Below, piece by piece: positions 1 through 11,349 of a stretch of 13,889 nucleotides of DNA. Source of the stretch: Gallionella sp. (GTDB taxonomy: Bacteria > Pseudomonadota > Gammaproteobacteria > Burkholderiales > Gallionellaceae). Position numbers and translations under genes: made by a program. The notes below the pieces were generated by a model that saw only the letters and a program-made list of their open reading frames with translations, searched no databases and had not been told where the DNA came from. Position 1 is the first letter of the stretch, and each line of letters starts with the position of its first letter. The stretch spans positions 1 through 13,889 of the forward strand of contig JAUYGW010000099.1 of assembly GCA_030690245.1 (NCBI GenBank). The letters are read 5' to 3'.

Positions 1-2217
1 CTCAAGATCGCCCGTGAGGGTGGGCAGATGACGCCTGCCGATCTGGCAAAGTTCGAGATGCAACGACGCTATGCCACTCTGGTTTCGCTGGCCATTGAAG
101 GCATGGCCACCGTCACCGACGAAATCATCGACCTGCACGACCGCATCATTGGCAAACTATTCAACGCCGCCAAGAACAAGCATCAGCAGCAGTTTCAGGC
201 TTCCGGCAAGGCGATCAATGACAAGGTGCGGATGTATGGCCGCATCGGGCAAGCCCTGCTGGAAGCCAAACAGAGCGGGGGCGATCCGTTCGCCGCAATC
301 GAAACCGTCATGCCGTGGGAAAGGTTTGCAGCCAGCGTCACGGAGGCGCAAAAGCTTGCGCAACCGGAGAGCTTCGACTTTCTGCATCGCATCGGTGAAA
401 GCTACGCCACGTTGCGCCGCTACGCACCGCAGTTCCTGGACGTACTCAAGCTACGGGCGGCACCAGCCGCCAAGGGCGTGCTCGACGCCATCGACGTGCT
501 GCGCGGCATGAACAGCGACAGCGCACGCAAGGTGCCCGCTGACGCGCCGACCGCATTCATCAAGCCACGCTGGGCGAAACTGGTGCTCACGGACGATGGT
601 ATTGACCGGCGCTATTACGAGCTGTGCGCCTTATCAGAGCTTAAGAACGCGCTGCGCTCAGGCGATGTCTGGGTGCAGGGTTCGCGCCAGTTCAAGGACT
701 TTGATGAGTACCTGGTGCCGGTCGAGAAGTTCGCTACTCTGAAGCTGGCCAGCGAACTGCCGCTGGCAGTGGTCACTGACTGCAATCAGTATTTGCACGA
801 CCGACTGGAATTGCTGGAACAACAGCTCGCTACCGTCAACCGCATGGCGGCGGCCAATGATCTGCCGGACACCATCATTACCGAGTCCGGCCTGAAGATC
901 ACGCCGCTGGACGCGGCAGTGCCGGAATCCGCGCAAGCCCTGATTGACCAATCGGCGATGCTGCTGCCGCACCTCAAAATCACCGAACTGCTCATGGAGG
1001 TCGATGAGTGGACAGGTTTCACGCGGCACTTCACGCACCTTAAGACTGGCGACACCGCCAAGGACAAAACCTTGTTGATGACGACGATCTTGGCGGATGC
1101 GATCAACCTGGGCTTGACCAAGATGGCCGAGTCCTGCCCAGGCACGACCTACGCCAAGCTCTCGTGGCTGCAAGCCTGGCACATCCGGGATGAAACGTAT
1201 TCGACGGCGCTGGCCGAACTGGTCAACGCGCAGTTTCGGCAACCCTTCGCCGGAAACTGGGGTGACGGCACCACCTCATCGTCGGATGGCCAGAACTTCA
1301 GAACCAGCAGCAAGGCGGAAAGCACCGGGCATATCAACCCGAAGTATGGAAGCAGTCCAGGGCGGACGTTTTATACCCATATCTCCGACCAGTACGCGCC
1401 CTTCAGCGCCAAGGTGGTCAACGTCGGCGTGCGCGATTCGACCTATGTACTCGATGGTCTGCTGTACCACGAATCTGACCTGCGCATTGAGGAGCACTAC
1501 ACCGACACAGCAGGCTTCACCGACCATGTGTTTGGCTTGATGCACCTGCTGGGCTTTCGCTTCGCACCGCGCATTCGCGATTTGGGCGACACCAAGCTGT
1601 TCATCCCCAAAGGCGATACCGCCTATGAAGCGCTCAAACCGATGATTAGCAGTGACCGGCTGAATATCAAGCAGATACGCGCTCATTGGGATGAGATTTT
1701 ACGGCTGGCTACCTCAATCAAGCAGGGCACGGTGACGGCCTCGCTGATGCTCAGGAAACTCGGCAGCTATCCACGTCAAAACGGCTTGGCCGTAGCGTTG
1801 CGCGAGTTGGGCCGTATAGAGCGCACGCTGTTCATCTTGGACTGGCTGCAAAGCGTGGAGCTGCGCCGCCGCGTGCAGGCCGGTCTCAACAAAGGCGAGG
1901 CGCGCAACGCGTTGGCCAGGGCGGTGTTCTTCAACCGGCTGGGCGAAATTCGCGACCGCAGCTTTGAGCAGCAACGCTACCGAGCCAGCGGCCTCAATCT
2001 GGTGACGGCGGCCATCGTGCTATGGAACACGGCCTATCTGGAACGGGCAACCAACGCTTTGAACGGGCACGGCAAACCGGTAGACGACACGCTGTTGCAA
2101 TACCTGTCACCGCTAGGGTGGGAACACATCAATCTGACCGGCGATTACCTTTGGCGCAGCAGCTCCAAGGTCGGCGCAGGCAAGTTCAGGCCGTTGCGAC
2201 CGCTGCCACCAGCTTAA
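1..2217 (+). CDS. tnpA: Tn3-family transposase TnpA (5' partial)
   Basis: This DDE transposase of the Tn21/Tn501 type catalyses replicative transposition by recognising the 38-bp ends and forming cointegrates. The reading frame is open from base 1 ([10 protein letters not shown]...), so the 738 residues seen are the C-terminal three quarters of a protein usually near 990 residues; about 250 N-terminal residues lie outside the window. From memory the sequence follows Tn21-type TnpA closely throughout, including [24 protein letters not shown] and LTGDYLWR. The expected catalytic triad is visible, numbered from the first codon of the window: D429 in SSSDGQNF, D502 in HYTDTAGF and E633 in LNKGEARN. 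The spacings of 73 and 131 are close to those of Tn3 TnpA. No frameshift or internal stop is present, so the gene may be functional. The stop at 2215-2217 falls inside the terminal repeat. Confidence 0.96.
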
Positions 2218-2250
2218 CGTGCTTTATTTTCCGTTTTCTGAGACGACCCC
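2213..2250. repeat. 38-bp terminal inverted repeat of the Tn21-like element
   Basis: Read inward from the host side (reverse strand), the repeat starts GGGGTCGTCTCAGAAAACGG and ends ACGTTAAG. That is the length, GGGG start and ...AAG inner end typical of Tn21-subfamily ends. It supplies the last codon and stop of tnpA on one strand. On the other strand it supplies seven foreign codons (VVSENGK, after one junction Gly) and a stop to the interrupted cysteine desulfurase. Confidence 0.92.
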
Positions 2251-2892
2251 ATAAAGAGCGCCTACCCCTTTAGTGGCATAGAACTTGTGTCCCGCCAAGG
2301 TCAGCAGATCGACACCCAGCGCTTCGATATCGAGTTCAACCTTGCCAGCTGACTGGGCGGCATCGGTGTGGAGCAGCGCGCCCATAGGCTTGACCAGGCG
2401 AGCGATTTCGGCAATCGGCTGGATCGTTCCAACTTCGTTGTTCGCGTGCATGACCGACACCAGCCCCGTATCGGGGCGCACGGCTGCGGCAACCGCTTGG
2501 GGATCGACGCGACCGTAACCATCCACCGGCACCACGGTCAAGCTCCAGCCCATCTCGCGCAGGTGTTGCGCCGGCTGCATGATCGCCGGGTGTTCGATTG
2601 CGCTGATGACAAGATGCCGTTTCGTGTGTCCAAGGGCATTGGCGATGCCGAGCAGGGCCAGATTGTTGGCTTCGGTCGCGCTGCCGGTAAAAATGATTTC
2701 AGCTTCCCGCGCATTGATAAGCGCAGCCACCGACGCCCGCGCTTCTGCGACAGCCTGCCGGGCAGCTATTCCATACACATGCGACGAAGAAGGATTGCCA
2801 AAGCGCTCGACCAGATAAGGCAGCATTGCCTCCACCACTTGCGGAGCGACCGGCGTGGTCGCGTTGTAATCGAGATAGACAGGTGTCCTCAC
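2224..2892 (-). pseudogene. Cysteine desulfurase (NifS/IscS type), truncated by transposon
   Basis: The N-terminal half is a class V PLP-dependent cysteine desulfurase, a family that takes sulfur from L-cysteine as an enzyme-bound persulfide. Visible family features are YLDYNATTP (8-16), GNPSSSH (32-38), FTGSATEANNLAL (68-80), the PLP-stacking His in SAIEHPA (H101), HANNEVGTIQ (149-158), HTDAAQS (D177) and the PLP lysine in AGHKFYATKG (K203). Host sequence stops after Y214 at the transposon edge; eight junction- and repeat-derived residues follow before a stop. The C-terminal domain, with the catalytic cysteine loop near residue 325-330 in IscS, is missing, so the product should be inactive. 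The start is GTG, and its GTGA overlaps the stop of the upstream SHOCT gene by four bases, suggesting translational coupling. Full-length relatives have about 380-400 residues. Its place as last gene of a sulfur operon fits supply or trafficking of persulfide sulfur. Confidence 0.93.
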
Positions 2893-3131
2893 GGCTCCAT
2901 ATCTCGCTTCTTCTGCTCATATTCCTCACGATCAATCTCGCCGCGAGCGTAGCGTTCCTGCACGATCTCCAGTGGCGTCTTGTTGCGAGCCCCCTGGCCT
3001 GATGGTGATTGTATTAGCATCCATCGGATGAGCGCCGCGATTCCAAGAATGATTAGCACCCAGAATAGCAGCATGAACAGCATGCCAAAGCCCATACCCC
3101 ACCAGCCAAAACTGCCCCAGTCACTCGTCAT
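2889..3131 (-). CDS. Small SHOCT-domain membrane protein
   Basis: This 80-residue protein has one hydrophobic segment (about residues 13-36, GMLFMLLFWVLIILGIAALIRW) after a short Trp/Gly-rich N-terminus. It ends in a C-terminal SHOCT motif (about 52-78, LEIVQERYARGEIDREEYEQKK). SHOCT is a short helical module found at the C-terminus of many small membrane proteins and thought to mediate oligomerisation; no enzymatic role is known. A longer frame to 3242 is open, but the ATG at 3131 is preferred because AGGAGG lies six bases upstream and the extension has no coding character and would overlap the preceding gene. It lies 31 bases after the outer-membrane protein gene and overlaps the cysteine desulfurase start by four bases, so it belongs to the same operon. 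Its role in the pathway is unknown. Confidence 0.85.
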   Translation of the reverse strand: MTSDWGSFGWWGMGFGMLFMLLFWVLIILGIAALIRWMLIQSPSGQGARNKTPLEIVQERYARGEIDREEYEQKKRDMEP

Positions 3132-3162
3132 GTCATGCCTCCTCTGCGATTCATGGTGAAAG

Positions 3163-4506
3163 TCAGAATTCGTAACGGGCCTGGAGATACACATTGTCAT
3201 CGCGGGCGAGTTGGCCGAACTGACCCCATGGCTTGCCGCCAAACAGGTTGGCGCCGATTGCGCCCCACCATCGGTCGGTGAAACTATAGCGCAACTCCGG
3301 GTTCACGAAGTGGTCGCCATTGCTGGTGTTGTACGAGGCATAGGCAGAAAACCGCAGCGTCTGGTGCAGGAAGAATTGCGTCAGGCGCGCCGTGACAGTG
3401 TGGCTCCAATGCTTTTCGACCGGAAAACCGGCGGGCAGCGCAGCGAGGTAGGCGCCGTAGTCGTGCATGTGCTCGGCGTAGTACTGGAAGCCGAGCGAGG
3501 TATCTTCCGCTGGCTGTATCTGGTAGCCGGCGAGCAGTCGCGTCTGTGAGTTAGGCACGGCGAAGTCTTTCCCCGCGCGATCCTCACGCGAGTCATAGTA
3601 AGCCGCTTCCAGGCTCAGCACCCCTGCGCCCGCGCGACCGGAAAGGCTGGCGCCATAGATCGAGAGCCTGGGGTAAAAATAGGTGATCTTCGTTGGTGCC
3701 GCCATGTTGTCTGGCCGCATTGAGGGGGTGCGCTGGAAGCCGCGATATAAATAGAGCGCCGCATCATAGCCTGCGATGTCGCGGTAAGCGCGCAACCCAA
3801 CGTCCCCCTGTCCCGGCTTGACGGTTTCGCGGTTGGTCACTGCCGGCATCGGGTCGTAAAGCCGGAAACGGTTGGCATCGGGAATACGGCTCTCCTGGAA
3901 ATCCGGCGCAAGTACCAGCTCGAAGTTGGCAAACTCGGGATAGGCGCCCAGTTTCACCGCATCCACACCGCGCTTGAGGTATTCCAGCGGCCGCCCGGCG
4001 AACAGTGCCTCGTAATCTTTGGGAAAAAAATCGTTCACGAACACCAGATCGCCCAGGCCCCAGGTGATGATCTGCCGACCGGCACGCAAGCCCCAGTTGC
4101 TTGCCGCATAGTCCGCATAGCCTTCGCGCAACTCGGATTGATCATGGCGACCGAGATGGTCGTAGGAAAAATCGCCCTTGACCAGCAGCCGCCAGGCGTC
4201 TTCGGTGGCGTCGAGCTGGATCCGCGCGTGCTCCTCCAGCCACTTGTAATGGCGGCCATCCGGGTTCGCCGCGACGGCATTGAAGGCCGTGTTCTGTTGC
4301 ATGAAACCGGAGAGAGCAACTTCCGCCCACGCGGTAAGAGGTGCCAGCAAAACAACGAAATAAAGCGCGGCAACAACCCCTCTCCCCAACCCTCTGGATG
4401 AAACAACTAGCCATTCGACTAGGCTGCCAAAAACCGCAGCCAAGTCGCTGGTTATCCCGCAAGGGGAGAGGGGGTAAACGTGAAGGGCGATTGTTTTGAT
4501 TGGCAT
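3163..4506 (-). CDS. Putative outer-membrane beta-barrel protein with repeat-expanded N-terminus
   Basis: The 447-residue product reads as an exported outer-membrane barrel. A hydrophobic signal core (about 44-57) is followed by TAWA with predicted cleavage after A61. Many alternating aromatic strands follow, and the protein ends in a C-terminal aromatic (QARYEF), the usual BAM recognition signal. The segment GRQIITWGLGDLVFVNDFFP (142-161) resembles DUF1302-like barrels, but I cannot assign a family firmly. The ATG at 4506 is chosen because it overlaps the stop of the upstream LolA-like gene as TGATG, implying coupling. Residues about 11-44 are encoded by an inserted palindromic repeat, giving an unusually long pre-signal region; a TTG near residue 40 is an alternative start. 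Position after the RND exporter and periplasmic LolA-like genes suggests it is the outer-membrane part of the same export route. Confidence 0.8.
   Translation of the reverse strand: MPIKTIALHVYPLSPCGITSDLAAVFGSLVEWLVVSSRGLGRGVVAALYFVVLLAPLTAWAEVALSGFMQQNTAFNAVAANPDGRHYKWLEEHARIQLDATEDAWRLLVKGDFSYDHLGRHDQSELREGYADYAASNWGLRAGRQIITWGLGDLVFVNDFFPKDYEALFAGRPLEYLKRGVDAVKLGAYPEFANFELVLAPDFQESRIPDANRFRLYDPMPAVTNRETVKPGQGDVGLRAYRDIAGYDAALYLYRGFQRTPSMRPDNMAAPTKITYFYPRLSIYGASLSGRAGAGVLSLEAAYYDSREDRAGKDFAVPNSQTRLLAGYQIQPAEDTSLGFQYYAEHMHDYGAYLAALPAGFPVEKHWSHTVTARLTQFFLHQTLRFSAYASYNTSNGDHFVNPELRYSFTDRWWGAIGANLFGGKPWGQFGQLARDDNVYLQARYEF
4377..4474. repeat. About 98-bp palindromic repeat inserted in frame in the outer-membrane protein gene
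   Basis: The ends form an exact 11-bp inverted repeat, CCCCTCTCCCC at 4377-4387 and GGGGAGAGGGG at 4463-4473. Inside is a second hairpin: CGACTAGGCTGC (4416-4427) pairs with GCAGCCAAGTCG (4436-4447) with one mismatch around an 8-base loop. The outer arms resemble the dispersed CCCTCTCCCC...GGGGAGAGGG repeats common in proteobacterial genomes. It lies between the coupled start codon and the signal-peptide core of the outer-membrane protein and keeps the frame open, adding roughly 33 codons. That it is a mobile or dispersed repeat is inferred from structure; only one copy is in the window. Confidence 0.75.
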
Positions 4507-5306
4507 CAGTCAACCCACTTGCGCGGCGGCTGGCGCAGGAAGCGTTCCGAGAACAGGCTGTCCTCCATGCCGAGGTTATAGTCAGTCTTGAGGTAAGCGA
4601 CCTCGGTGCGATGGCCGGTCTGCAGATTTTTCATGGTGCGCCGGACCACCGTGGGAATTCCCTTCACCTCGGCGATTTCATCGGCGCTGAACTGTTTGTA
4701 GCGGGTATTTTTCTTGTCGTATTGTTCTTCCTTGAGCGGCAGGAAACTTGTCTTGTCCACCCACGTTATTTTGTGGCCGAAGTCGGCATCCGAACCCTTG
4801 GGCGTACTCTTCACCACATAGCAGTCGCGGTCACCAACTTTTCCCTCGCGCTCGACTATGTGGTCGTCGTCCTCGATGTCGCGGCCGGAAACGTCCTCGT
4901 AGGTGAAGTCGGAGCCGACGAAGCTGGAGCGCTTATCCTGCGCGGCGATGCGCTTGACCATGCTGATCGCCGGGATGAACATCCAGCGGTCGTCATCCCT
5001 GGCCGGGTACTTGTGAATCATGAAAGTCATGTCCTTCACATCGGTCGGACGGAAGAAATACATGAAGTATTTCTGGTCGCCGCCTGCCTCGCCCATATTC
5101 TTGCGCAGCATGGTCATCTCGCGCACCCGTTCCTGCCCGTCCTTGTTGATGAGCTTCATCACCACCCGCGCCTTGAAATCCTTGCCCGGATAGAGGAAGG
5201 CGGCCTGGGACTTCTTCATCACTTCTTCGCCCGTGAGAGCCTGCGCCTGGCCCGAAAATGCCAGGGGCAACAGGGCGGCGATCAGCCATATCCACCAGTG
5301 CTTCAT
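4506..5306 (-). CDS. Periplasmic LolA-like outer-membrane lipoprotein-sorting family protein
   Basis: This 266-residue exported protein has a signal peptide (residues 1-23, MKHWWIWLIAALLPLAFSG then QAQA with cleavage before LTGEEV). The mature part fits the family usually annotated as outer membrane lipoprotein-sorting protein, a LolA-fold protein distinct from the LolA of the Lol pathway. Supporting segments are DFKARVVMKL (43-52), KYFMYFFRPTDVKDMTF, the region around DRWMFIPA, SSFVGSDFTYEDVSGRDIEDDDH, and the C-terminal YNLGMEDSLFSERFLRQPP. It has no lipobox. Such proteins are typically encoded beside RND/MMPL exporters and are thought to carry a lipid or hydrophobic cargo across the periplasm. 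The start is one base after the exporter stop, with AAGGAGA just upstream inside the exporter 3' end; its own stop overlaps the next start (TGATG). Cargo is unknown. Confidence 0.88.
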   Translation of the reverse strand: MKHWWIWLIAALLPLAFSGQAQALTGEEVMKKSQAAFLYPGKDFKARVVMKLINKDGQERVREMTMLRKNMGEAGGDQKYFMYFFRPTDVKDMTFMIHKYPARDDDRWMFIPAISMVKRIAAQDKRSSFVGSDFTYEDVSGRDIEDDDHIVEREGKVGDRDCYVVKSTPKGSDADFGHKITWVDKTSFLPLKEEQYDKKNTRYKQFSADEIAEVKGIPTVVRRTMKNLQTGHRTEVAYLKTDYNLGMEDSLFSERFLRQPPRKWVD

Positions 5307-5307
5307 T

Positions 5308-7659
5308 TCAATCTCCTTTCACAATTGCCGGTGCGGTGTCCGCCGCCAGCTTGGGTTGGTCGAATAGCCAATTTCTCCCCAGCATCACCAGCGCGGGCAG
5401 ATAGAGGATGGTGAGCAGCGCGGAGAGCAGCATCATCGAGACGATGAAGGCGCCCACCGCCATGTAGGGTGTGAGGGGCGCTGCGAGCATTACCGAGAAG
5501 GCTGCGGCGAACAGCAGCGCATTGCGCAGAATGCCCTTGCCCGGACGCGCCGCCGTCCACAGCAACGCCTCCCTTACTGCCGCCTCGCTTGTAGCACCGC
5601 CCGACTCGGCCAAATGCTGGCGGAAGCGGCTGATGAAGTGGATGGAGAAATCCACCGCCATGCCGAGCGACAAAGTGCTCATCACCGACAGCGGCATGTC
5701 GAAGTCCTTGCCGACGAAGCCGACTACGCCGTAGATCAACAGTATGGTGAACAGCAGCGGCACGTAGGCGACCAGCGCCCACTTGGCCGAGCGGAAGTCC
5801 AGCGCCAGGATGACGAATACCACCACCAGCGCCAATATGAGGCCAAGCACCAGATCGCCCAGCACCTCGTCGTTCCACACCAGATTGAACCAGGCGATGC
5901 CTGCCGGTTTCACTGTCACCGCCAGCGGGTGAGCCTTCTGGTAGGTGTCCGCCGCCTGAATCACCTGGCGCATCGCTTCCGCATCCCAGGTCTTGAGCTG
6001 CACCCACAGATTGGCTTTCTGAAAGCCTGGATCGACCACGTTGTCCAGATCGGAGGGTTTGGCCGACATGCTGAACAGGAACAGATATTGGCCGACCGTG
6101 TCCTGTGTATCCGGCACTACATCGAATTTCGGGTCGTCATCGTGCAGGACGCGGTTGATGCGTTTTACGTAATCTGCGACCGAAAAAGTCTTACCCACCA
6201 CCGGCAGGGTTTCCAGATATCGCTGCAATCCCTCCAGCCAGCGCATGGTCTCCGGGCTTTTTATAAACTCTGGCTCCCCGGACTGCACCACCAGGTAGCC
6301 GAGCGAAGTACCGCCCAAGGCCTGGTTCATCGCCGTGTCGGCGATACGGATTTCACTCGACGGCTTGAACCAGGCCACCATGTTGTTGTTGACGTGAATC
6401 TTCGTCGTGCCGACGATGGCTATCCCCACCAGCACCAGGCCTGCGAGCATGGTGGCCAGCGGGCGACCGGCGCCGATCCCGCCGACTCTATGCAGGAAGC
6501 GCGCGGTGCGATCCAATTCCACGCTCTCGCCCTTGGCGGCTTTGGCGATCTTCTCTTCCTTGACGAAGGTGAGGATGGCCGGAATCAAACTGAATGAGAA
6601 CAAGCGCAGCACCACCGTGCCAAAGGCGATCAGCCCGCCGAACACCTGCACCGGCACGATGTTCATGAACAACAGCACGGCGAAGCCGGCGGCGGTGGCG
6701 AGCGCCGTGAAGCGCACCGGACGGCTCACCGCCTGCATCGTTTCGCGGATCGCCGCCAGCTTGTCTCCGCGCTCCCGGTAACGGAAATAGAACTCGTTGA
6801 AGATATGGATGCTGTCGGTGGCGATGGCCATCAGGAATACCGGCGCCATCGAACTCATGATGTGTACCGGATAGCCGGTGCCGATCAGCGACCCTATGCT
6901 TATGATGATCGCCGCCATGGCGACACCCATCATGGTGAACGACAGCGACAGGTTGCGGAACATGAGCTGGATGGCGATGAACATGATCATGCCTGCAATC
7001 GGCGAGAAGATGCCCATCAGCTTGAACATCTCGGCGCCGAAGGTGTCGCGCGCCACCGGATCGCCCGCGACGTAGTAGCGCTCCGGCCCTTTCTCCCCGG
7101 CCACGATCTCGCGGATATTGCCGGCGATGACGGCGCCGTTGGCTCCCTTCTCCAGCGGCACGTAAATGGCCGTGGTCTTGCCGTCCTTCGAGATCACTCG
7201 GTCGACCAGCAGCGGGTTGCCGGAAAGCGCGGAGCGGAGCGCCTCCACCTCGGCCTGGCTGTGCGGCGCACCCGGCATGAGCGGCCCCACTTTCAGCGTG
7301 CCGTCCTCGGCCGTGACGTTGGTGATGGTGGTGAAGCCGTTCACATCCCGGCTCGCCACGCCTTCGAGCTTGAGGATTTCATCGGTGATACGGGCGATAC
7401 GTCCAAGGGTTTCCCTGTTCAGCACGCCGTCATCATTCCGCACCCCAACGACGATGGTGTCCTCGTAGAGGGCGAAGGTCTTGTCCACCTCGTTGTTCCA
7501 GACACGCACGTCCGAATTTTCCGGCAGCATGTTCTTCGGGTTGGTGTCAGTCTTTATATTCGGGAACTGGGTGAGGAACAGCAGCGTCAGCGCCACCGTC
7601 GCCCAGATAACCAGCTTCGGGCGACGGATGGAGAATTCGACAAGTGAAAATTTGAACAT
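5308..7659 (-). CDS. RND-superfamily (MMPL-type) exporter permease
   Basis: This 783-residue inner-membrane protein has the duplicated RND layout. There is TM1 near 15-31, a large periplasmic loop (about 35-205), a five-helix bundle (about 210-370), TM7 (about 400-418), a second periplasmic loop (about 420-600) and a final five-helix bundle (about 602-762). Symmetrical acidic residues sit in the fourth helix of each half, D282 in IATDSIHIFNEF and D670 in GMAVDFSIHF, the expected proton-relay positions. It is smaller than HAE1-type pumps (about 1040 residues) and has no fusion-protein gene beside it. It therefore fits the MMPL/HpnN-like branch that moves lipids or hydrophobic molecules out of the inner membrane. 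The ATG at 7659 follows a run of seven G on the coding strand, five bases upstream, which serves as the likely ribosome binding site. It is 48 bases downstream of the flavoprotein gene without an evident terminator. Confidence 0.92.
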   Translation of the reverse strand: MFKFSLVEFSIRRPKLVIWATVALTLLFLTQFPNIKTDTNPKNMLPENSDVRVWNNEVDKTFALYEDTIVVGVRNDDGVLNRETLGRIARITDEILKLEGVASRDVNGFTTITNVTAEDGTLKVGPLMPGAPHSQAEVEALRSALSGNPLLVDRVISKDGKTTAIYVPLEKGANGAVIAGNIREIVAGEKGPERYYVAGDPVARDTFGAEMFKLMGIFSPIAGMIMFIAIQLMFRNLSLSFTMMGVAMAAIIISIGSLIGTGYPVHIMSSMAPVFLMAIATDSIHIFNEFYFRYRERGDKLAAIRETMQAVSRPVRFTALATAAGFAVLLFMNIVPVQVFGGLIAFGTVVLRLFSFSLIPAILTFVKEEKIAKAAKGESVELDRTARFLHRVGGIGAGRPLATMLAGLVLVGIAIVGTTKIHVNNNMVAWFKPSSEIRIADTAMNQALGGTSLGYLVVQSGEPEFIKSPETMRWLEGLQRYLETLPVVGKTFSVADYVKRINRVLHDDDPKFDVVPDTQDTVGQYLFLFSMSAKPSDLDNVVDPGFQKANLWVQLKTWDAEAMRQVIQAADTYQKAHPLAVTVKPAGIAWFNLVWNDEVLGDLVLGLILALVVVFVILALDFRSAKWALVAYVPLLFTILLIYGVVGFVGKDFDMPLSVMSTLSLGMAVDFSIHFISRFRQHLAESGGATSEAAVREALLWTAARPGKGILRNALLFAAAFSVMLAAPLTPYMAVGAFIVSMMLLSALLTILYLPALVMLGRNWLFDQPKLAADTAPAIVKGD

Positions 7660-7707
7660 GATTTCCCCCCCAAAAAATTTTGCTGTTGCCGAACGCGATG
7701 CGTTGCG

Positions 7708-8856
7708 TCAGAACCGCCTGTAAAGCCAGTACTTCTCGTACAGGATTTTGCCCATGTGCCAGAAGCGATTTGGCCCGCGCATCCCTACTTGCGGCGTCGG
7801 CTCGGCGTAAAAATTACCCTTGCCGATGCCGGCACGACCGCCGCCAGTCTCGATAAAGCACATGCCCTCACCGGTGAATTGGCGCGTCTCGCCCTTGCCG
7901 GTCCATGCATAGGCGATGTTGTGCGCTACGACTTCGGCCTGGCCGTCGGCGAACACGCCGGCTTTGGGCAGCGGGCGCCCCATCTTGAGCGGAATGGTAG
8001 TAATGTCGCCTAGCGCGAAGACGTTCTCGAACTGTGTCTGAAGCGTGTGGCGGTCAACGGGAATCCAGCCGCTCTCGTTGGTCAAACCTGCCTCACGCGC
8101 CACCGCTGGTGCGCGGTGCGGCGGAACATAGAGCAGCAGGTCGAATTCTGCTTCAGTGCCATTTTCGAATGAAATGCGCCGGTTGGCGGCATCGACCTCT
8201 TTGACCTGATGCTCGGGATGGTAAGCAATGCCGCGCGCCTCGACCATCCCGCGCACGGCGGCGCCCAACTCGGGACCGGCGACGAACATCGGCCGAGGTT
8301 CGGCGGCGAAGAACTCGATAGTGGTTTTCTCGCGCAGGCCGCGCTTGCGCAGATAGCTATCTACCAGCAACGCAGTCTCGTAGGGCGCAGCTGGGCACTT
8401 GTATTGCGGCGCTGCGGTCAGGATGACAATGCGCCCTCCCGAAAACCGGACCAGCGCGTCGTGGATCGCGGTTGCGCCTTCCATCGTATAAATGCAGAGA
8501 CCGCTTTCGGCGAGGCCGGGAATGGTATCCGGTGCGTACTCCGCACCCAGCGCGATTACCAGCGCATCGGCGCGCAGGGGTTGCCCGTCAATTTCTACTT
8601 CCCGCCGGGCGGGATCAATCCGCGTGACGTTGCCTTGGCGAAACTCGATGCCGTGAGGCAGCCGATCCAGTGGGCGCGTGAAGTCCTGCGGAGTCCGCTG
8701 TCCCACCATCAGCCACAGCAGCGAAGGCGGGAAAAAATGCTGTCCGGCGCGATCCACCGCGATCACGCGGTCGGAAGCGGGCAGCAGCTTGCGCAACGTC
8801 TCGGCGGCAACGATGCCGCCGATCCCCGCGCCCAATACCAGCACAGTGCGACTCAT
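7708..8856 (-). CDS. SQR-like FAD-dependent oxidoreductase
   Basis: This 382-residue flavoprotein of the sulfide:quinone oxidoreductase / flavocytochrome c sulfide dehydrogenase group starts with a Rossmann FAD motif (VLVLGAGIGGIVAAETL, 5-21). It carries the second FAD motif FENVFALGDITTIPL (276-290). Three cysteines, C121 (GLCIYT), C154 (YKCPAAPYE) and C333 (GMCFIETGG), occur at spacings close to the three conserved cysteines of characterised SQRs. C154 and C333 would be the redox pair that accepts sulfide and passes electrons to FAD. The C-terminus KILYEKYWLYRRF is basic-aromatic, like the membrane-binding tail of SQRs. Probable role: oxidising sulfide or another reduced sulfur compound to a persulfide or polysulfide with transfer to quinone, but a related specificity is possible. 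It starts 10 bases after the DsrE gene, in the same operon. Confidence 0.85.
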   Translation of the reverse strand: MSRTVLVLGAGIGGIVAAETLRKLLPASDRVIAVDRAGQHFFPPSLLWLMVGQRTPQDFTRPLDRLPHGIEFRQGNVTRIDPARREVEIDGQPLRADALVIALGAEYAPDTIPGLAESGLCIYTMEGATAIHDALVRFSGGRIVILTAAPQYKCPAAPYETALLVDSYLRKRGLREKTTIEFFAAEPRPMFVAGPELGAAVRGMVEARGIAYHPEHQVKEVDAANRRISFENGTEAEFDLLLYVPPHRAPAVAREAGLTNESGWIPVDRHTLQTQFENVFALGDITTIPLKMGRPLPKAGVFADGQAEVVAHNIAYAWTGKGETRQFTGEGMCFIETGGGRAGIGKGNFYAEPTPQVGMRGPNRFWHMGKILYEKYWLYRRF

Positions 8857-8866
8857 TTTGTTCTTT

Positions 8867-9217
8867 CTAGAAAACGATGACTTTGTCGGCCCACTGCGTC
8901 CACGCCGTGAGTTGATCCATGGTGCTGCGCGACGCGCCTTCGATCATCTCCTCGGCAGCGATGCCGCGCGCGTCGAGGCAAGTGCCGCATACGCCGACTT
9001 CTCCATTACCGCGCACCACCATGCCCAGCATGTCGCCGATGTTGTAATAACCCTGCGGCACCTTCTGTCCGCCTTTGGCGCACGCAGCCGCATCACCGAT
9101 GAGAAAAACCTTAACTTCCGCTTCACCGGTCTTGAGTAGCCAGCGCGCAAGGCGCAAGCCGTTATAGCTGCGCTCCGTCCCGTAAGGAGCGTCGTTCAGT
9201 ATCATCAGGTGTTTCAT
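8867..9217 (-). CDS. DsrE-family sulfur-carrier-like protein
   Basis: This 116-residue protein has the DsrE/DsrF/TusD fold. The start MKHLMILNDAPYGTERSYNGLRLA (1-24) is the typical first strand and helix. VKVFLIGDAAACAKGG (35-50) is the second strand with C46, and EVGVCGTCLDARG (73-85) carries C77 and C80. Members of this family bind or transfer persulfide sulfur on a conserved cysteine; the CGTC pair here occupies that position. It is the first gene of the operon, with GGGAGG five bases before the ATG and a good promoter upstream. Being beside an SQR-like enzyme suggests it receives or buffers sulfane sulfur in the cytoplasm. It is not dsrE of the DsrEFH complex as far as can be seen, since no dsrF or dsrH follows. 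Confidence 0.9.
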   Translation of the reverse strand: MKHLMILNDAPYGTERSYNGLRLARWLLKTGEAEVKVFLIGDAAACAKGGQKVPQGYYNIGDMLGMVVRGNGEVGVCGTCLDARGIAAEEMIEGASRSTMDQLTAWTQWADKVIVF

Positions 9218-9239
9218 AATATCCTCCCTTGGTTATAAC

Positions 9240-9259
9240 AATCCAACGATTGTTGGAAT
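9240..9259. promoter_or_regulatory. Palindromic operator, probably for the ArsR-rhodanese regulator
   Basis: The 20-bp near-palindrome AATCCAACGATTGTTGGAAT has exact arms TCCAAC (9242-9247) and GTTGGA (9252-9257) around GATT. It covers the expected transcription start of the minus-strand operon and lies about 90 bases upstream of the divergent regulator gene. A related half-site, TTTGTTGGTAT, occurs at 9309-9319 over the regulator's own -10 box. GGATTGTTAT recurs in both leaders (minus strand 9244-9235, plus strand 9342-9351). Binding by the neighbouring regulator is inferred. Confidence 0.65.
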
Positions 9260-9260
9260 G

Positions 9261-9289
9261 ATTAGAGCAGCATCCGCACACATTGTCAA
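9261..9289 (-). promoter_or_regulatory. Sigma-70-type promoter of the dsrE/SQR/RND operon
   Basis: On the minus strand a perfect -35 box TTGACA (9289-9284) and a -10 box TCTAAT (9266-9261) are separated by 17 bases. Transcription should start near 9254, leaving a leader of about 37 bases that contains the GGGAGG ribosome binding site. The start point falls inside the palindromic operator at 9240-9259, as expected for repressor control. Confidence 0.78.
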
Positions 9290-9313
9290 CGGAATCATCG
9301 GCACATGGTTTGT

Positions 9314-9322
9314 TGGTATAAT
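9314..9322 (+). promoter_or_regulatory. Extended -10 promoter of the ArsR-rhodanese gene
   Basis: TTGGTATAAT (9313-9322) contains a consensus TATAAT at 9317-9322 with the extended TGn element. No good -35 box is seen at normal spacing, which is common for extended -10 promoters. Transcription would start near 9329, about 20 bases before the ATG at 9350, and this excludes the earlier in-frame ATG at 9305. Confidence 0.6.
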
Positions 9323-9349
9323 TCGCAATCAAATAACTACCGGATTGTT

Positions 9350-10003
9350 ATGGTGAAAGACGCACGCAAGATCAAAAACCTGCTTTATGAACAGGTGGCA
9401 CGGATTGGCAAGGTATTCTCAAGCCCCAAGCGGCTGGAGTTGATTGAGTTGCTTTGTCAGGGTGAAATGACGGTGGAAACGCTTGCGCGTGAGGCTTCTA
9501 TCAGCATGAAACTGGCTAGCGCCCATCTGCGCGAGTTGCGGGGTGCCCATCTGGTCGAAACCGAGCGGCGGGGCAAAAACATTCTCTATCGTTTGGTCGA
9601 CAAGGAGGTCGCCGATTTATGGGTGCATGTTCATACCCTAGCCGAAAACCGACTGATTGAACTGCAAACGGAATTGCAGAAAATCGCCACGCAACCAAAC
9701 GATTTGGTGCCCAGTGATCGTGAAACGCTGATGAAAATGGCGCGCCGGGGTGAAGTGGTCGTGCTGGATGTACGCCCAACCGAAGAGTATCTGGCGACGC
9801 ACCTTCCATTCGCTCGCTCCATTCCCATCGACGAACTGCGCCAACGGCTTGCGGAACTACCAAAGGATAGGCCGATTGTTGCCTACTGCCGCGGCCCTTA
9901 TTGTCTGATGGCGATAGATGCAGTAGAGCTGTTGCGCAAGGAGGGTTTCAAGTCTGCGCATTTGCGGGATGGTGTCGCGGAATGGAAGGTGACAGAAGTT
10001 TGA
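9350..10003 (+). CDS. ArsR-type regulator fused to a rhodanese domain
   Basis: This 217-residue protein has two domains. Residues about 8-95 form an ArsR winged helix: VARIGKVFSSPKRLELIELL, then the recognition helix region TVETLAREASISMKLASAHLRELRGAHLV, then the wing ERRGKNILYRL. Residues about 122-217 form a rhodanese domain: VVVLDVRPTEEYLATHLPFARSIPI and the active loop CRGPYC (C180-C185), ending LRDGVAEWK. Cysteine-loop rhodaneses carry sulfur as a persulfide, so the fusion probably couples reactive-sulfur sensing to DNA binding. The only cysteine in the DNA-binding part is C36, so the two-cysteine switch of SqrR/BigR-type sensors is not present there. The ATG at 9350 is used because the promoter lies after the ATG at 9305; the ribosome binding site is poor. 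It is divergent from the sulfur operon and is its likely local repressor. Confidence 0.9.
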   Translation: MVKDARKIKNLLYEQVARIGKVFSSPKRLELIELLCQGEMTVETLAREASISMKLASAHLRELRGAHLVETERRGKNILYRLVDKEVADLWVHVHTLAENRLIELQTELQKIATQPNDLVPSDRETLMKMARRGEVVVLDVRPTEEYLATHLPFARSIPIDELRQRLAELPKDRPIVAYCRGPYCLMAIDAVELLRKEGFKSAHLRDGVAEWKVTEV

Positions 10004-10013
10004 CAGGCTCTTA

Positions 10014-10237
10014 GCCTACGCCGAAACTTGGTTATGTTGTTCTACAACGTGGAGTTGTGGCTTTGGCCACTATAGCTACGCGGTTTTACATCAGCTTCGC
10101 CGATATGAGCCTGCGCCGCAATCTGGTCCTGTTGTTTCACAACGGTGGTGATTGTGGCTTCGGCCACCGCTACGCGGTTTCACATCGGCTTCGCCGATAT
10201 GAGCCTGCGCCGCAATCTAGTCCTGTTGTTTCACAAC
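10014..10237. repeat. Degenerate tandem repeats, about 2.3 copies of a 90-bp unit
   Basis: Two near-identical copies, 10055-10143 and 10152-10237, share GCTACGCGGTTT, CTTCGCCGATATGAGCCTGC and GTCCTGTTGTTTCACAAC, and differ by a 3-base indel and scattered substitutions. A tail-only third copy precedes them (10021-10047, ending GTTGTTCTACAAC). Each unit holds several small hairpins with TTC or TTCG loops, for example GTGGCTTCGGCCAC (10154-10167) and ATCGGCTTCGCCGAT (10184-10198). The unit ends in 16-17 bases that match the complement of the proB 3' end. Frames open across the repeats give low-complexity peptides with no start signal, so I read the region as non-coding, lying between two convergent genes. 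Confidence 0.8.
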
Positions 10238-10249
10238 AGGACTAGATTG
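10213..10249. terminator. Perfect 17-bp hairpin at the proB 3' end
   Basis: CAATCTAGTCCTGTTGT (10213-10229) and its exact complement (10233-10249) flank a 3-base loop, TTC. The stem is the junction of the last repeat copy with the final codons of proB, whose stop codon lies at the loop. It sits between convergent genes and could act on both strands, but neither side has a T tract. A role in RNA 3'-end protection or Rho-independent pausing is therefore only possible, and the terminator label is tentative. Confidence 0.45.
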
Positions 10250-11349
10250 TCACGGTGGATGATTTCTTCGTCGCCGCCGTACCCGAGCAAGGCCTCGATT
10301 TCCTGGCTGGCATGGCGCGCGATACGCCGCGCTTCGTCGGCGTTGTAGTTGCTCAGGCCGCGCGCGATGTCGCTGCCGTCCTCGCCGACGCAGGCGACAA
10401 CCGCACCGCGCTCGAATTCCCCGAACACGCTCTTGACGCCGATCGGCAGAAGGCTTTTGCCTTCAGAGCGCAATGCCCTGATCGCGCCGCCATCCAGCAC
10501 CAGCTTCCCCGCAACCTGAAGATGATCGGCCAGCCATTGTTTGCGTGCGGCCAGGGTGAGGGCAGGGGCGGCGAGCAGCGTGCCGATGGCTTCGCCCTGC
10601 ATCAAACGCAACAGCACATCGCGTTCATGGCCAGAAGCGATGACGGTATGCGCGCCGCTGCGCGCCGCGCGCTTTGCCGCGAGTATCTTGGTGATCATGC
10701 CGCCGCGCCCGATCTGGCTGCCTGCGCCACCCGCCATGCTTTCCAGCTGTATATCGCCGGCCTGCGCTTCGCTGACCAGCGTCGCACCCGGGTCTTTGCG
10801 CGGGTCGGCGGTGTAGAGGCCGCTTTGATCGGTGAGGATGATGAGCACGTCGGCATCGATCAGATTGGTGACCAGCGCGCCCAGCGTGTCGTTGTCGCCG
10901 AATTTGATTTCGTCGGTCACCACCGTATCGTTCTCGTTGATGATCGGGATGACGCGCAACGAAAGCAGCGTGGTCAGCGTGGTGCGCGCGTTCAGATAGC
11001 GTTCGCGATTGGCCAGATCGGCATGGGTGAGCAGCACTTGCGCCGCATGCAAACCATGTTTGCGAAAGCAGCTTTCATAGGCCTGCACCAGGCCCATCTG
11101 CCCGACCGCCGCTGCGGCCTGCAAATCGTGTATCGAAGTAGGGCGGGTGCTCCAGCCGAGGCGTTGCATGCCTTCGGCAATCGCGCCGGAGGATACCAGC
11201 ACTACTTCGCGGCCGCCGGTGTTGAGTGCGGCAATCTGCCGAGCCCAATCGCCCAGCGCGTCAAGATCCAGCCCCGCACCCTGATTCGTCACCAGGCTGC
11301 TGCCTACTTTGACGACGATGCGCTTGCATTGGGTCAACACGGTTTTCAT
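10231..11349 (-). CDS. proB: Glutamate 5-kinase
   Basis: This enzyme phosphorylates L-glutamate with ATP, the first step of proline synthesis in the cytoplasm. The 372-residue protein has the full two-domain form. The amino-acid kinase domain (about 7-255) carries [56 protein letters not shown] and [19 protein letters not shown] domain (about 275-358) includes [27 protein letters not shown] and [18 protein letters not shown]. The ATG at 11349 is used; a TTG two codons earlier is also in frame. The last codons (HRDNLVLL) form one arm of a perfect hairpin. It follows obgE in the same direction, the usual betaproteobacterial order, but a REP-type inverted pair separates them. proA is not in the window. 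Confidence 0.97.

Follow-up and report, generated by a model that had tools for sequence, protein, structure and literature searches.

The window analysed here is one whole contig of 13,889 nucleotides (JAUYGW010000099.1, contig C166 of our own genome G000) from a Gallionella sp. assembly of 2.34 Mb that is 82.5% complete. On its minus strand, from position 9217 downwards, lie genes for a DsrE-family protein, an SQR-like flavoprotein, an RND exporter, a LolA-like carrier, an outer-membrane barrel and a SHOCT protein, followed by the first part of nifS, and a gene for an ArsR-family repressor fused to a rhodanese domain diverges from them on the plus strand. The association of sulfur genes with the exporter trio (RND, LolA-like, barrel) is well supported by gene neighbourhoods in other genomes, and this suggests a new arrangement, an AmeABCD-like kind of exporter set under a sulfur regulon. 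The genes of this locus are as follows.

8867–9217, minus strand: DsrE-family protein, YchN-like, with a CGTC motif (PF02635, E = 4.8e-24; PDB 1jx7, YchN, E = 3.3e-20; alignment)
7708–8856, minus strand: SQR-like flavoprotein (PF07992; NCBIfam and PDB matches)
5308–7659, minus strand: inner-membrane RND/MMPL exporter, HAE3-like (PF03176, TIGR00921)
4506–5306, minus strand: LolA-like periplasmic carrier (PF17131, E = 8.4e-59)
3163–4506, minus strand: porin-type outer-membrane beta-barrel (AlphaFold and Foldseek; weak Wzi/DUF1302)
2889–3131, minus strand: small SHOCT membrane protein (PF09851, E = 1.2e-9), in an open reading frame (ORF) open to 3242, with an ATG at 3131
2251–2892, minus strand: 5′ part of nifS (TIGR03402, profile positions 1–209)
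9350–10003, plus strand: ArsR-family repressor fused to a rhodanese domain with a CRGPYC motif, in an ORF open from 9305 (PF01022 and PF00581; alignment)

Coordinates and profile matches agree that the first six genes, with an exporter resembling the HAE3 type, form a tight minus-strand set, and the gaps of 10, 48, 1, −1, 31 and −4 bases named in the original prediction match the coordinates, the 31 holding if the SHOCT gene starts at ATG 3131. That prediction had also seen no internal terminator, and none stands out: there were 10 terminator-like sites, compared with a mean of 8.1 in shuffled sequence. Its ‘one strong promoter’ fared less well, as a TTGACA/TCTAAT candidate can be seen but a scan for the sigma-70 consensus found no site in 2200–10300. 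The operon genes upstream of nifS are open reading frames, and the ratio of non-synonymous to synonymous substitution (dN/dS) against locus L026 was 0.10–0.14 for RND, SQR, DsrE and barrel.

The SQR-like protein matched type III SQR best in NCBIfam (NF049943, E = 4.8e-67; 226.6 bits, under the 525-bit cut-off) and SQR chains best in the PDB, where flavocytochrome c was also matched. Aligned with its relatives (n = 18), it has redox cysteines at C333, conserved in 18 of 18, and at C154, conserved in 17 of 18 (L030 is without C154), so that 7708–8856 is predicted to encode a pyridine nucleotide-disulfide oxidoreductase fold with redox cysteines. DsrE genes are scarce, with 36 matches across the 12 genomes searched, 0 to 9 in each and two in our own; all six genomes with an RND protein at least 83% identical and enough contig (our own, G011, G013, G016, G018 and G047) have a DsrE gene in the cluster, the contig of G034 being too short.

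For the exporter protein, the best NCBIfam match was TIGR00921 (172.9 bits, E = 8.5e-51, under the cut-off of 351.9), and the protein failed the HpnN hopanoid-transporter models (60.1 bits against 751.85 and 34.3 against 1100). Asp282 and Asp670 were invariant in the alignment (n = 31), and they lie in stretches that we take to be where RND pumps hold their proton-relay residues. The AlphaFold model of the LolA-like protein (mean pLDDT 80.0) found its best PDB matches in 9tp6 (LolA3 of Porphyromonas) and 4z48 (DUF1329). Although model confidence is low for its residues 121–140, 15 of the 20 positions do not vary among 39 sequences, and we regard this stretch as a candidate docking loop or contact site with the RND protein or the barrel. 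Porins were the best Foldseek matches of the barrel model (mean pLDDT 84.2, with residues 1–40 under 50), with a best E of 8.1e-11 and a TM-score of about 0.45 by query; the weak Wzi and DUF1302 matches were both under cut-off (21.1 bits against 23.2 for DUF1302). At three paralogous loci (L070, L071 and L073), RND and LolA profiles match a single ORF of 1052–1064 amino acids that is followed by a barrel gene, which fits a direct hand-over from RND to LolA. The expectation that RND–LolA–barrel sets move hydrophobic cargo agrees, by analogy, with AmeABCD (PMC6394551) and with aryl-polyene clusters (PMC8253772).

A scan of the LolA-like protein against 84,980 genomes, one per species, gave 38 loci. 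Going by their titles, 37 come from metagenome-assembled genomes and one from a bin, and they belong to Betaproteobacteria, Nitrospirae, Deltaproteobacteria, Elusimicrobia, Omnitrophota and, in one case, a Rhodospirillales bin; the nearest relatives of the protein are in Gallionella and other betaproteobacterial metagenome bins. Among cultured bacteria, Dechloromonas sp. A34 has a LolA-like protein with 82% identity. RND and barrel genes lay beside the LolA-like gene at 38 of 38 loci, with the barrel of L051 cut by the contig end and about 4 kb between RND and LolA in L039. The neighbourhood of each cassette was then taken to extend 5.5 kb upstream and 4.5 kb downstream, with custom DsrE, SQR, ArsR, NifS, PDO and MFS profiles built from the loci, and L064–L066 were dropped as the same DNA as L026, L030 and L034. 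ArsR-family genes were found at 29 of the 38 loci and DsrE or SQR-like genes at 23; where at least 2 kb of upstream DNA was present (n = 31), the counts were 27 for ArsR-family, 21 for DsrE or SQR-like and 5 for NifS. A narrower neighbourhood gave DsrE or SQR at 22 of 38 loci, and a far control gave RND, outer-membrane protein, ArsR and NifS at 0 loci and DsrE and SQR at one each.

The partners do not keep a fixed arrangement. An Elusimicrobium locus (L050) has the order ArsR–DsrE–RND–LolA–barrel–SQR–NifS, two others (L060 and L062) have ArsR–RND–LolA–barrel–DsrE, and in the Nitrospirae loci L038 and L039 DsrE/DsrF/DsrH-like genes and SQR come before the cassette (Pfam confirmed DsrE and DsrH for L038). 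That the same partners occur in different gene orders argues for function and not for one inherited string. The original prediction had proposed looking in other genomes for a conserved neighbourhood of the exporter with DsrE and SQR genes, and such a neighbourhood recurs across phyla.

As a class-wide control we fetched 20 LolA-like stretches (2 nearest, 9 intermediate and 9 distant), LolA-like matches at E 1e-20 being present in 117 of 274 class genomes. The two nearest loci (389 and 365 bits) had rhodanese, DsrE, SQR and NifS matches; the nine intermediate loci had SQR in two and ArsR in four, and the nine distant loci had DsrE or SQR in none and ArsR in one. We compared related cassettes (n = 33: the 31 loci above and the two nearest class loci) with distant ones (n = 13: the nine distant class loci and the paralogous L070–L073), leaving out the 7 of 38 loci with less than 2 kb upstream and the nine intermediate class loci, and keeping L124 and L130 (less than 700 bases upstream) in the control. 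DsrE or SQR was present in 23/33 related against 1/13 distant cassettes (Fisher P = 1.8e-4), and ArsR in 28/33 against 1/13 (Fisher P = 1.8e-6); the sole control positive for DsrE/SQR was an SQR-like gene on the opposite strand, 5–6 kb upstream, in L073. On a tree of 59 RND proteins (pieces under 700 amino acids dropped; long branches flagged, above all L131), the sulfur label needed 13 changes compared with a mean of 19.9 in shuffles, 1 of 500 of which was as low, so the label is clustered but has been gained or lost often.

The divergent head of the operon, ArsR–rhodanese facing dsrE, was also found without the exporter. Among 21 head loci, 9 had RND without a PDO-like gene, 9 had PDO-like and MFS genes without RND, one had both and two had neither (Fisher P = 0.0019, in groups sampled by RND status: 12 of 26 arsR–rhodanese matches were chosen mainly as lacking RND, and the RND loci came from the RND/LolA searches). 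Left out of this tally were L053 and L113 (DsrE too far away, no ArsR–rhodanese) and L156 (no DsrE found). The best PDB match of the PDO-like hydrolase was 3tp9, a beta-lactamase/rhodanese protein, and the ETHE1 persulfide dioxygenase 4chl matched with E = 3.9e-16; this metallo-hydrolase is likely, as judged from such matches, to be a persulfide dioxygenase. In genome G003 (L152) the genes run dsrE, PDO-like, MFS, SQR-like, amidotransferase, rhodanese, MFS, nifS, and L030 has this gene set with RND–LolA–barrel inserted after the amidotransferase. From the swap with PDO-like and MFS genes and from this insertion we infer that the trio behaves as an exchangeable output module of the sulfur regulon, which would be the best clue to its role.

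Between the divergent genes lie a candidate promoter and two palindromic sites.

9261–9289, minus strand: candidate promoter, TTGACA (9289–9284), 17 bases, TCTAAT (from the sequence)
9237–9261, minus strand: operator 1, an imperfect palindrome by the −10/start region (matrix score 31.0)
9325–9349, plus strand: possible operator 2, directly before the arsR–rhodanese start (matrix score 16.6)

The scores come from a weight matrix built on eight sites from other loci, with the window left out, and 200 mononucleotide-shuffled windows served as control (maximum 17.0, mean 9.7). The choice of region was not blind, the window palindrome having been noticed before the sites were collected. As operator 2 scores below the shuffle maximum, this second site alone is not beyond chance; a second site is also seen elsewhere, in L069 (16.5) and L030 (20.9). 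When each of the eight training sites was left out in turn, it was the best match in its own locus on either strand, and two loci outside the training set scored 21.1 (L037) and 24.8 (L112); in L033 the score was 16.2, inside the cassette. Related loci have similar palindromes before arsR–rhodanese or dsrE. Searched with up to 3 mismatches across the 2.34 Mb of our own genome, a degenerate operator pattern found only the 9237–9261 site and a transposon-borne arsR–rhodanese gene (described below), and a reversed control pattern also gave 2 sites.

The regulator itself scored 45.7 bits against the BigR model, under the 155 required, and BigR/SqrR-type identity was rejected, since the window protein is without the cysteine pair. 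TsoR, the NCBIfam name of a weak match, was not adopted as a label. A short ArsR in L044 has cysteines at alignment positions other than that of the HlyU cysteine. For the window protein, the rhodanese cysteine may be the persulfide sensor.

The original prediction had counted a cysteine desulfurase among the working members of the operon, and this part of it did not survive: a Tn3-family element is inserted in nifS and splits the gene at window position 2250/2251, with the C-terminal part on contig C343. The features of the element in the window are as follows.

28–2217, plus strand: Tn3-family transposase TnpA, N-terminal end cut by the contig end (NF033527, 1028.5 bits, profile positions 242–954 of 954; PF01526, E = 4.8e-158)
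2213–2250, minus strand: 38-bp terminal inverted repeat (partner at G000:C343:5798–5835, 3 mismatches)
2251–2255: 5-bp target duplication ATAAA (same five bases outside both repeats)

Transposase, 38-bp inverted repeats and 5-bp target duplication, the features of Tn3 membership, are all present, and positions 1–2251 share 92.2% nucleotide identity with a plasmid sequence whose annotation is Tn3 family transposase. The nifS ORF in the window covers positions 1–209 of the 379 in the NifS profile TIGR03402, and C343:5301–5798 covers 208–374. Only one further copy of the 38-bp repeat was found in our own genome (up to 3 mismatches), on C343 directly beside the rest of nifS; the element spans from window position 2213 to C343:5835, and its middle is absent from the assembly. 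The ORF at 2224–2892 runs into the inverted repeat at 2250, so its last codons are transposon DNA, and a functional full-length cysteine desulfurase there is ruled out by the split. We also considered an assembly misjoin as the cause, but a true insertion is the likelier cause, given the inverted repeats and the ATAAA that flanks them on both contigs. Past nifS, C343 carries a convergent gene and then others read as unrelated, so nifS looks to be the last gene of the operon.

On its C343 side (G000:C343:5798–10699, L080) the element carries an arsR–rhodanese gene with the same operator motif, a methyltransferase gene, ilvB, a small-subunit-like gene, trxB and dsrE. A complete-looking element of 9.9 kb, which has its two repeats and is flanked by AAATA, is present in the congener G001 (L150:5774–15684); its cargo includes arsR–rhodanese (92% identical), dsrE, a gamma-lyase-like gene of the pyridoxal-phosphate type and two ORFs read as methyltransferases. 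This cargo has the look of a transposon-borne sulfur-type regulon. Compared with plasmids, it found no record covering 80%, the six best matches listed being ilvB/ilvN-type stretches.

The LolA/barrel junction carries a repeat of its own.

About 4378–4481, minus strand: REP/MITE-like repeat (of the repetitive extragenic palindrome or miniature inverted-repeat transposable element kind), about 100 bp, at the LolA/barrel junction (43 own-genome matches listed)

It has at least 43 matches in our own genome, itself included, the best others being 90–95% identical; it was missing from this junction in all five relatives compared, and it lengthens the barrel ORF by about 35 codons. The start of the barrel ORF crosses this repeat, and we read TTG 4389 as the likelier start of the gene.

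Orthologues of the RND protein with at least 84% identity occur in 6 of 37 genus genomes, counting our own, and G047, a genome of another family, has one with 83%. Beyond arsR–rhodanese the window continues with proB, obgE, rpmA, rplU and rho (names by reading translations), and ObgE offers a comparison: G047 is 83% identical to the window in RND and 63% in ObgE, whereas the congener G018 is 87% identical in RND and 98% in ObgE. High RND against low ObgE identity in G047 indicates that the cassette probably moves by horizontal transfer.

Several loci have other neighbours. On the far side of arsR–rhodanese, L027 and L067 have a flavoprotein gene (lipoamide-dehydrogenase/MerA-like in L067) and one for an ArsM-like methyltransferase (E = 1.5e-51 and 4.6e-52, both under cut-off), followed in L067 by an ORF that reads as aquaporin-like. 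Between ArsR and SQR, Deltaproteobacteria loci encode a 147-amino-acid protein (L046) or a doubled 278-amino-acid form (L047) (clusters c20 and c21), the latter without a Pfam match. In a single case, the Ilyobacter polytropus plasmid pILYOP01 (L132), a LolA–barrel–RND cassette follows selD, yedF and a putative Se/S carrier gene, a neighbourhood that may point to a connection with selenium in this distant branch.

The closest characterised exporter that we found is AmeABCD of Castellaniella defragrans, where loss of ameABCD by deletion makes cells less tolerant of monoterpenes and lets more Nile Red accumulate (PMC6394551). AmeD is an HAE3 protein, AmeB belongs to the LolA superfamily and AmeA is a DUF1302 protein (PMC6394551), so that an RND protein, HAE3-like in the window, a LolA-superfamily periplasmic protein and an outer-membrane protein in one cassette are common to both systems. 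AmeABCD, however, has a fourth protein, AmeC, with DUF1329/DUF1302-type partners and a monoterpene island, whereas the window has PF17131, a barrel with a weak DUF1302 match, and ArsR, DsrE and SQR partners. No AmeC-like protein (COG4447) is among the seven operon genes, all of which belong to other families (COG4447 was not searched for in relatives). The hopanoid transporter HpnN also belongs to HAE3 (PMC6394551).

On the sulfur side, the SQR–RND operon Dsui_3440–3443 of Azospira suillum is highly expressed under H2S-oxidising conditions and has a Bar-seq fitness effect (PMC5358917). It shares with the window SQR and efflux genes standing together; its pump has a membrane fusion protein subunit, and the main text of that paper makes no mention of LolA, DsrE or ArsR. 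ArsR repressors that respond to sulfane sulfur (SqrR, BigR, SoxR and sHdrR) sit by sqr, rhodanese and pdo genes and have RND pumps among their probable targets (PMC12423496). SqrR/BigR-type sensors use two conserved cysteines that form a tetrasulfide bridge (PMC12423496), whereas in the window the regulator is fused to a rhodanese domain and its helix-turn-helix (HTH) part has a single cysteine. Thioalkalivibrio under arsenite is the subject of PMC6620896.

Among lipid systems, aryl-polyene clusters encode ApeL, ApeM and ApeN, in which a LolA-like protein and an RND protein have been proposed to handle hydrophobic cargo; they have a LolB-like partner instead of a barrel, together with polyene synthesis genes, and their gene table in the available text has no sulfur genes (PMC8253772). 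Among solved structures, LolA3 of Porphyromonas gingivalis (9tp6), treated also in PMC11885536, is the one most closely related to the LolA-like protein (28% identity, TM-score 0.71–0.74 by query) and has a hydrophobic groove (PMC13103446); the main text of the latter paper does not mention RND or MMPL. The LolCDE–LolA–LolB system has an ABC partner, whereas the window operon is without an ABC transporter (lolCDE was not searched for elsewhere in the genome) and an RND partner stands at 38 of 38 loci. Among the best-ranked matches listed from the open-licence literature, we found no description of an RND–LolA–barrel set joined with DsrE and SQR, most subscription papers lying outside that scope.

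We read the locus as a sulfane-sulfur-responsive operon whose RND–LolA–porin trio would dispose of a hydrophobic sulfur-linked product, an interpretation that we consider about evenly poised between right and wrong. In this scheme the ArsR–rhodanese protein would repress the operon, and probably itself too, via the palindromic operators, and a rise in sulfide or sulfane sulfur would lift the repression, with persulfide sensed through the rhodanese cysteine. DsrE would serve as a sulfur carrier and the SQR-like protein would oxidise sulfide or persulfide, both being made together with the export route. The proton-driven HAE3-type RND protein would extract the hydrophobic product from the inner membrane, the LolA-like protein would ferry it over the periplasm and the porin-type barrel would release it, so that the trio would be an alternative to the PDO-like hydrolase and MFS protein for ridding the cell of a sulfur product. 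NifS, which the transposon has broken in this genome, would supply the persulfide pool or draw on it. The signal, regulator binding, transport direction and cargo are the parts of this scheme that we infer. A narrower proposal, that the trio serves specifically to export zero-valent sulfur, as S8 or hydrophobic polysulfanes, from the SQR/DsrE branch and is an alternative to persulfide dioxygenase, we hold to be doubtful; the selD–yedF–Se/S carrier cluster by the Ilyobacter cassette means that the wider family may handle zero-valent chalcogens generally.

A number of results weigh against a sulfur-responsive operon that exports a sulfur-linked product. The alignments of the RND, LolA-like and barrel proteins contain no cysteine that is invariant or reaches 90% conservation, so the trio bears no mark of a sulfur cargo; this makes covalent carriage of a persulfide unlikely and a hydrophobic cargo likelier. 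DsrE and SQR are both missing at 10 of the 31 loci, and L033, L035 and L061 (3 of 31) have no ArsR, DsrE or SQR nearby; the neighbourhood counts also ignore phylogeny, and L045 and L047 have identical RND proteins. The ArsR–rhodanese protein has one cysteine in its HTH part, in addition to the rhodanese cysteines, and is without the pair of known sulfane-sulfur ArsR sensors. Not every locus has the operator: the matrix found nothing above 15.1 in L026, L027, L029 and L028 and nothing above 5.2 in L113, and the degenerate pattern had no match in G018, the DNA of which (L026) carries arsR–rhodanese, dsrE and SQR. A single genus supplied eight of the nine PDO loci without RND, and the PDO-like protein has similarity to glyoxalase II as well (the best NCBIfam match in L030 is GloB, under cut-off). 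Deletion of the SQR–RND operon in Azospira left the rate of H2S oxidation unchanged (PMC5358917). A lipid cargo would be consistent with genes seen close to some cassettes, which encode a fatty-acid hydroxylase (L037), a VTT–rhodanese protein (L027) and a PAP2 protein (L060); among the loci compared, 5 have the hydroxylase cluster and 3 the VTT cluster.

These last genes lead to the most substantial alternative, envelope lipid remodelling or repair, in which sulfide or polysulfide stress would induce a transporter that takes a lipid, perhaps a modified one, to the outer membrane and the sulfur genes would only mark the stress. The hydrophobic groove of LolA3 as the closest structure (PMC13103446), the proposed role of RND and LolA-like proteins for aryl-polyene lipids (PMC8253772) and the inclusion of HpnN in HAE3 (PMC6394551) would all suit it. 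We nevertheless regard it as somewhat unlikely, for the recurrent partners are ArsR, DsrE and SQR and no lipid gene is as frequent (lipid families were not searched one by one), and it leaves the swap with PDO-like and MFS genes unexplained. The trio could also be a general AmeABCD-like efflux system for toxic apolar compounds, put under the control of sulfur since polysulfides or organosulfur compounds would be one of several inducers. The deletion phenotypes of AmeABCD in Castellaniella (PMC6394551) and the commonness of related LolA-like proteins in class genomes speak for such a role, which we think improbable in view of the distant cassettes without sulfur partners; no degradation island was seen in the clusters either, though none was searched for.

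Export of a thio-metal complex of arsenic or mercury, as metalloid or metal-sulfide detoxification, is suggested by the ArsM-like and flavoprotein/MerA-like neighbours of arsR in L027 and L067. Such neighbours occur at few loci (no search was made for arsB, acr3 or arsC), the regulator in the window has a rhodanese domain and the operon has SQR and DsrE, so this explanation seems to us very improbable. The neighbourhood might, lastly, be chance, with a mobile RND cassette landing by sulfur genes: the cassette does appear to move, as the G047 and G018 identities indicate, and the 13 changes on the RND tree mean that sulfur partners were often gained or lost. Against this stand the same partners across phyla in different gene orders, an operator common to part of the loci and a number of changes that 1 in 500 shuffles matched, and we give chance almost no credence.

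To our knowledge, how zero-valent sulfur from sulfide oxidation passes over the outer membrane is not settled, and RND–LolA–barrel cassettes, as far as we know, are common and mostly uncharacterised. A regulon of SQR and DsrE joined to a full inner-to-outer-membrane route for hydrophobic compounds is a concrete candidate for sulfur excretion. If the operon does dispose of a sulfur-linked product, a role would be assigned to one branch of these cassettes; if that product is zero-valent sulfur, the trio would provide a genetically defined route for the excretion of elemental sulfur by Gram-negative bacteria.

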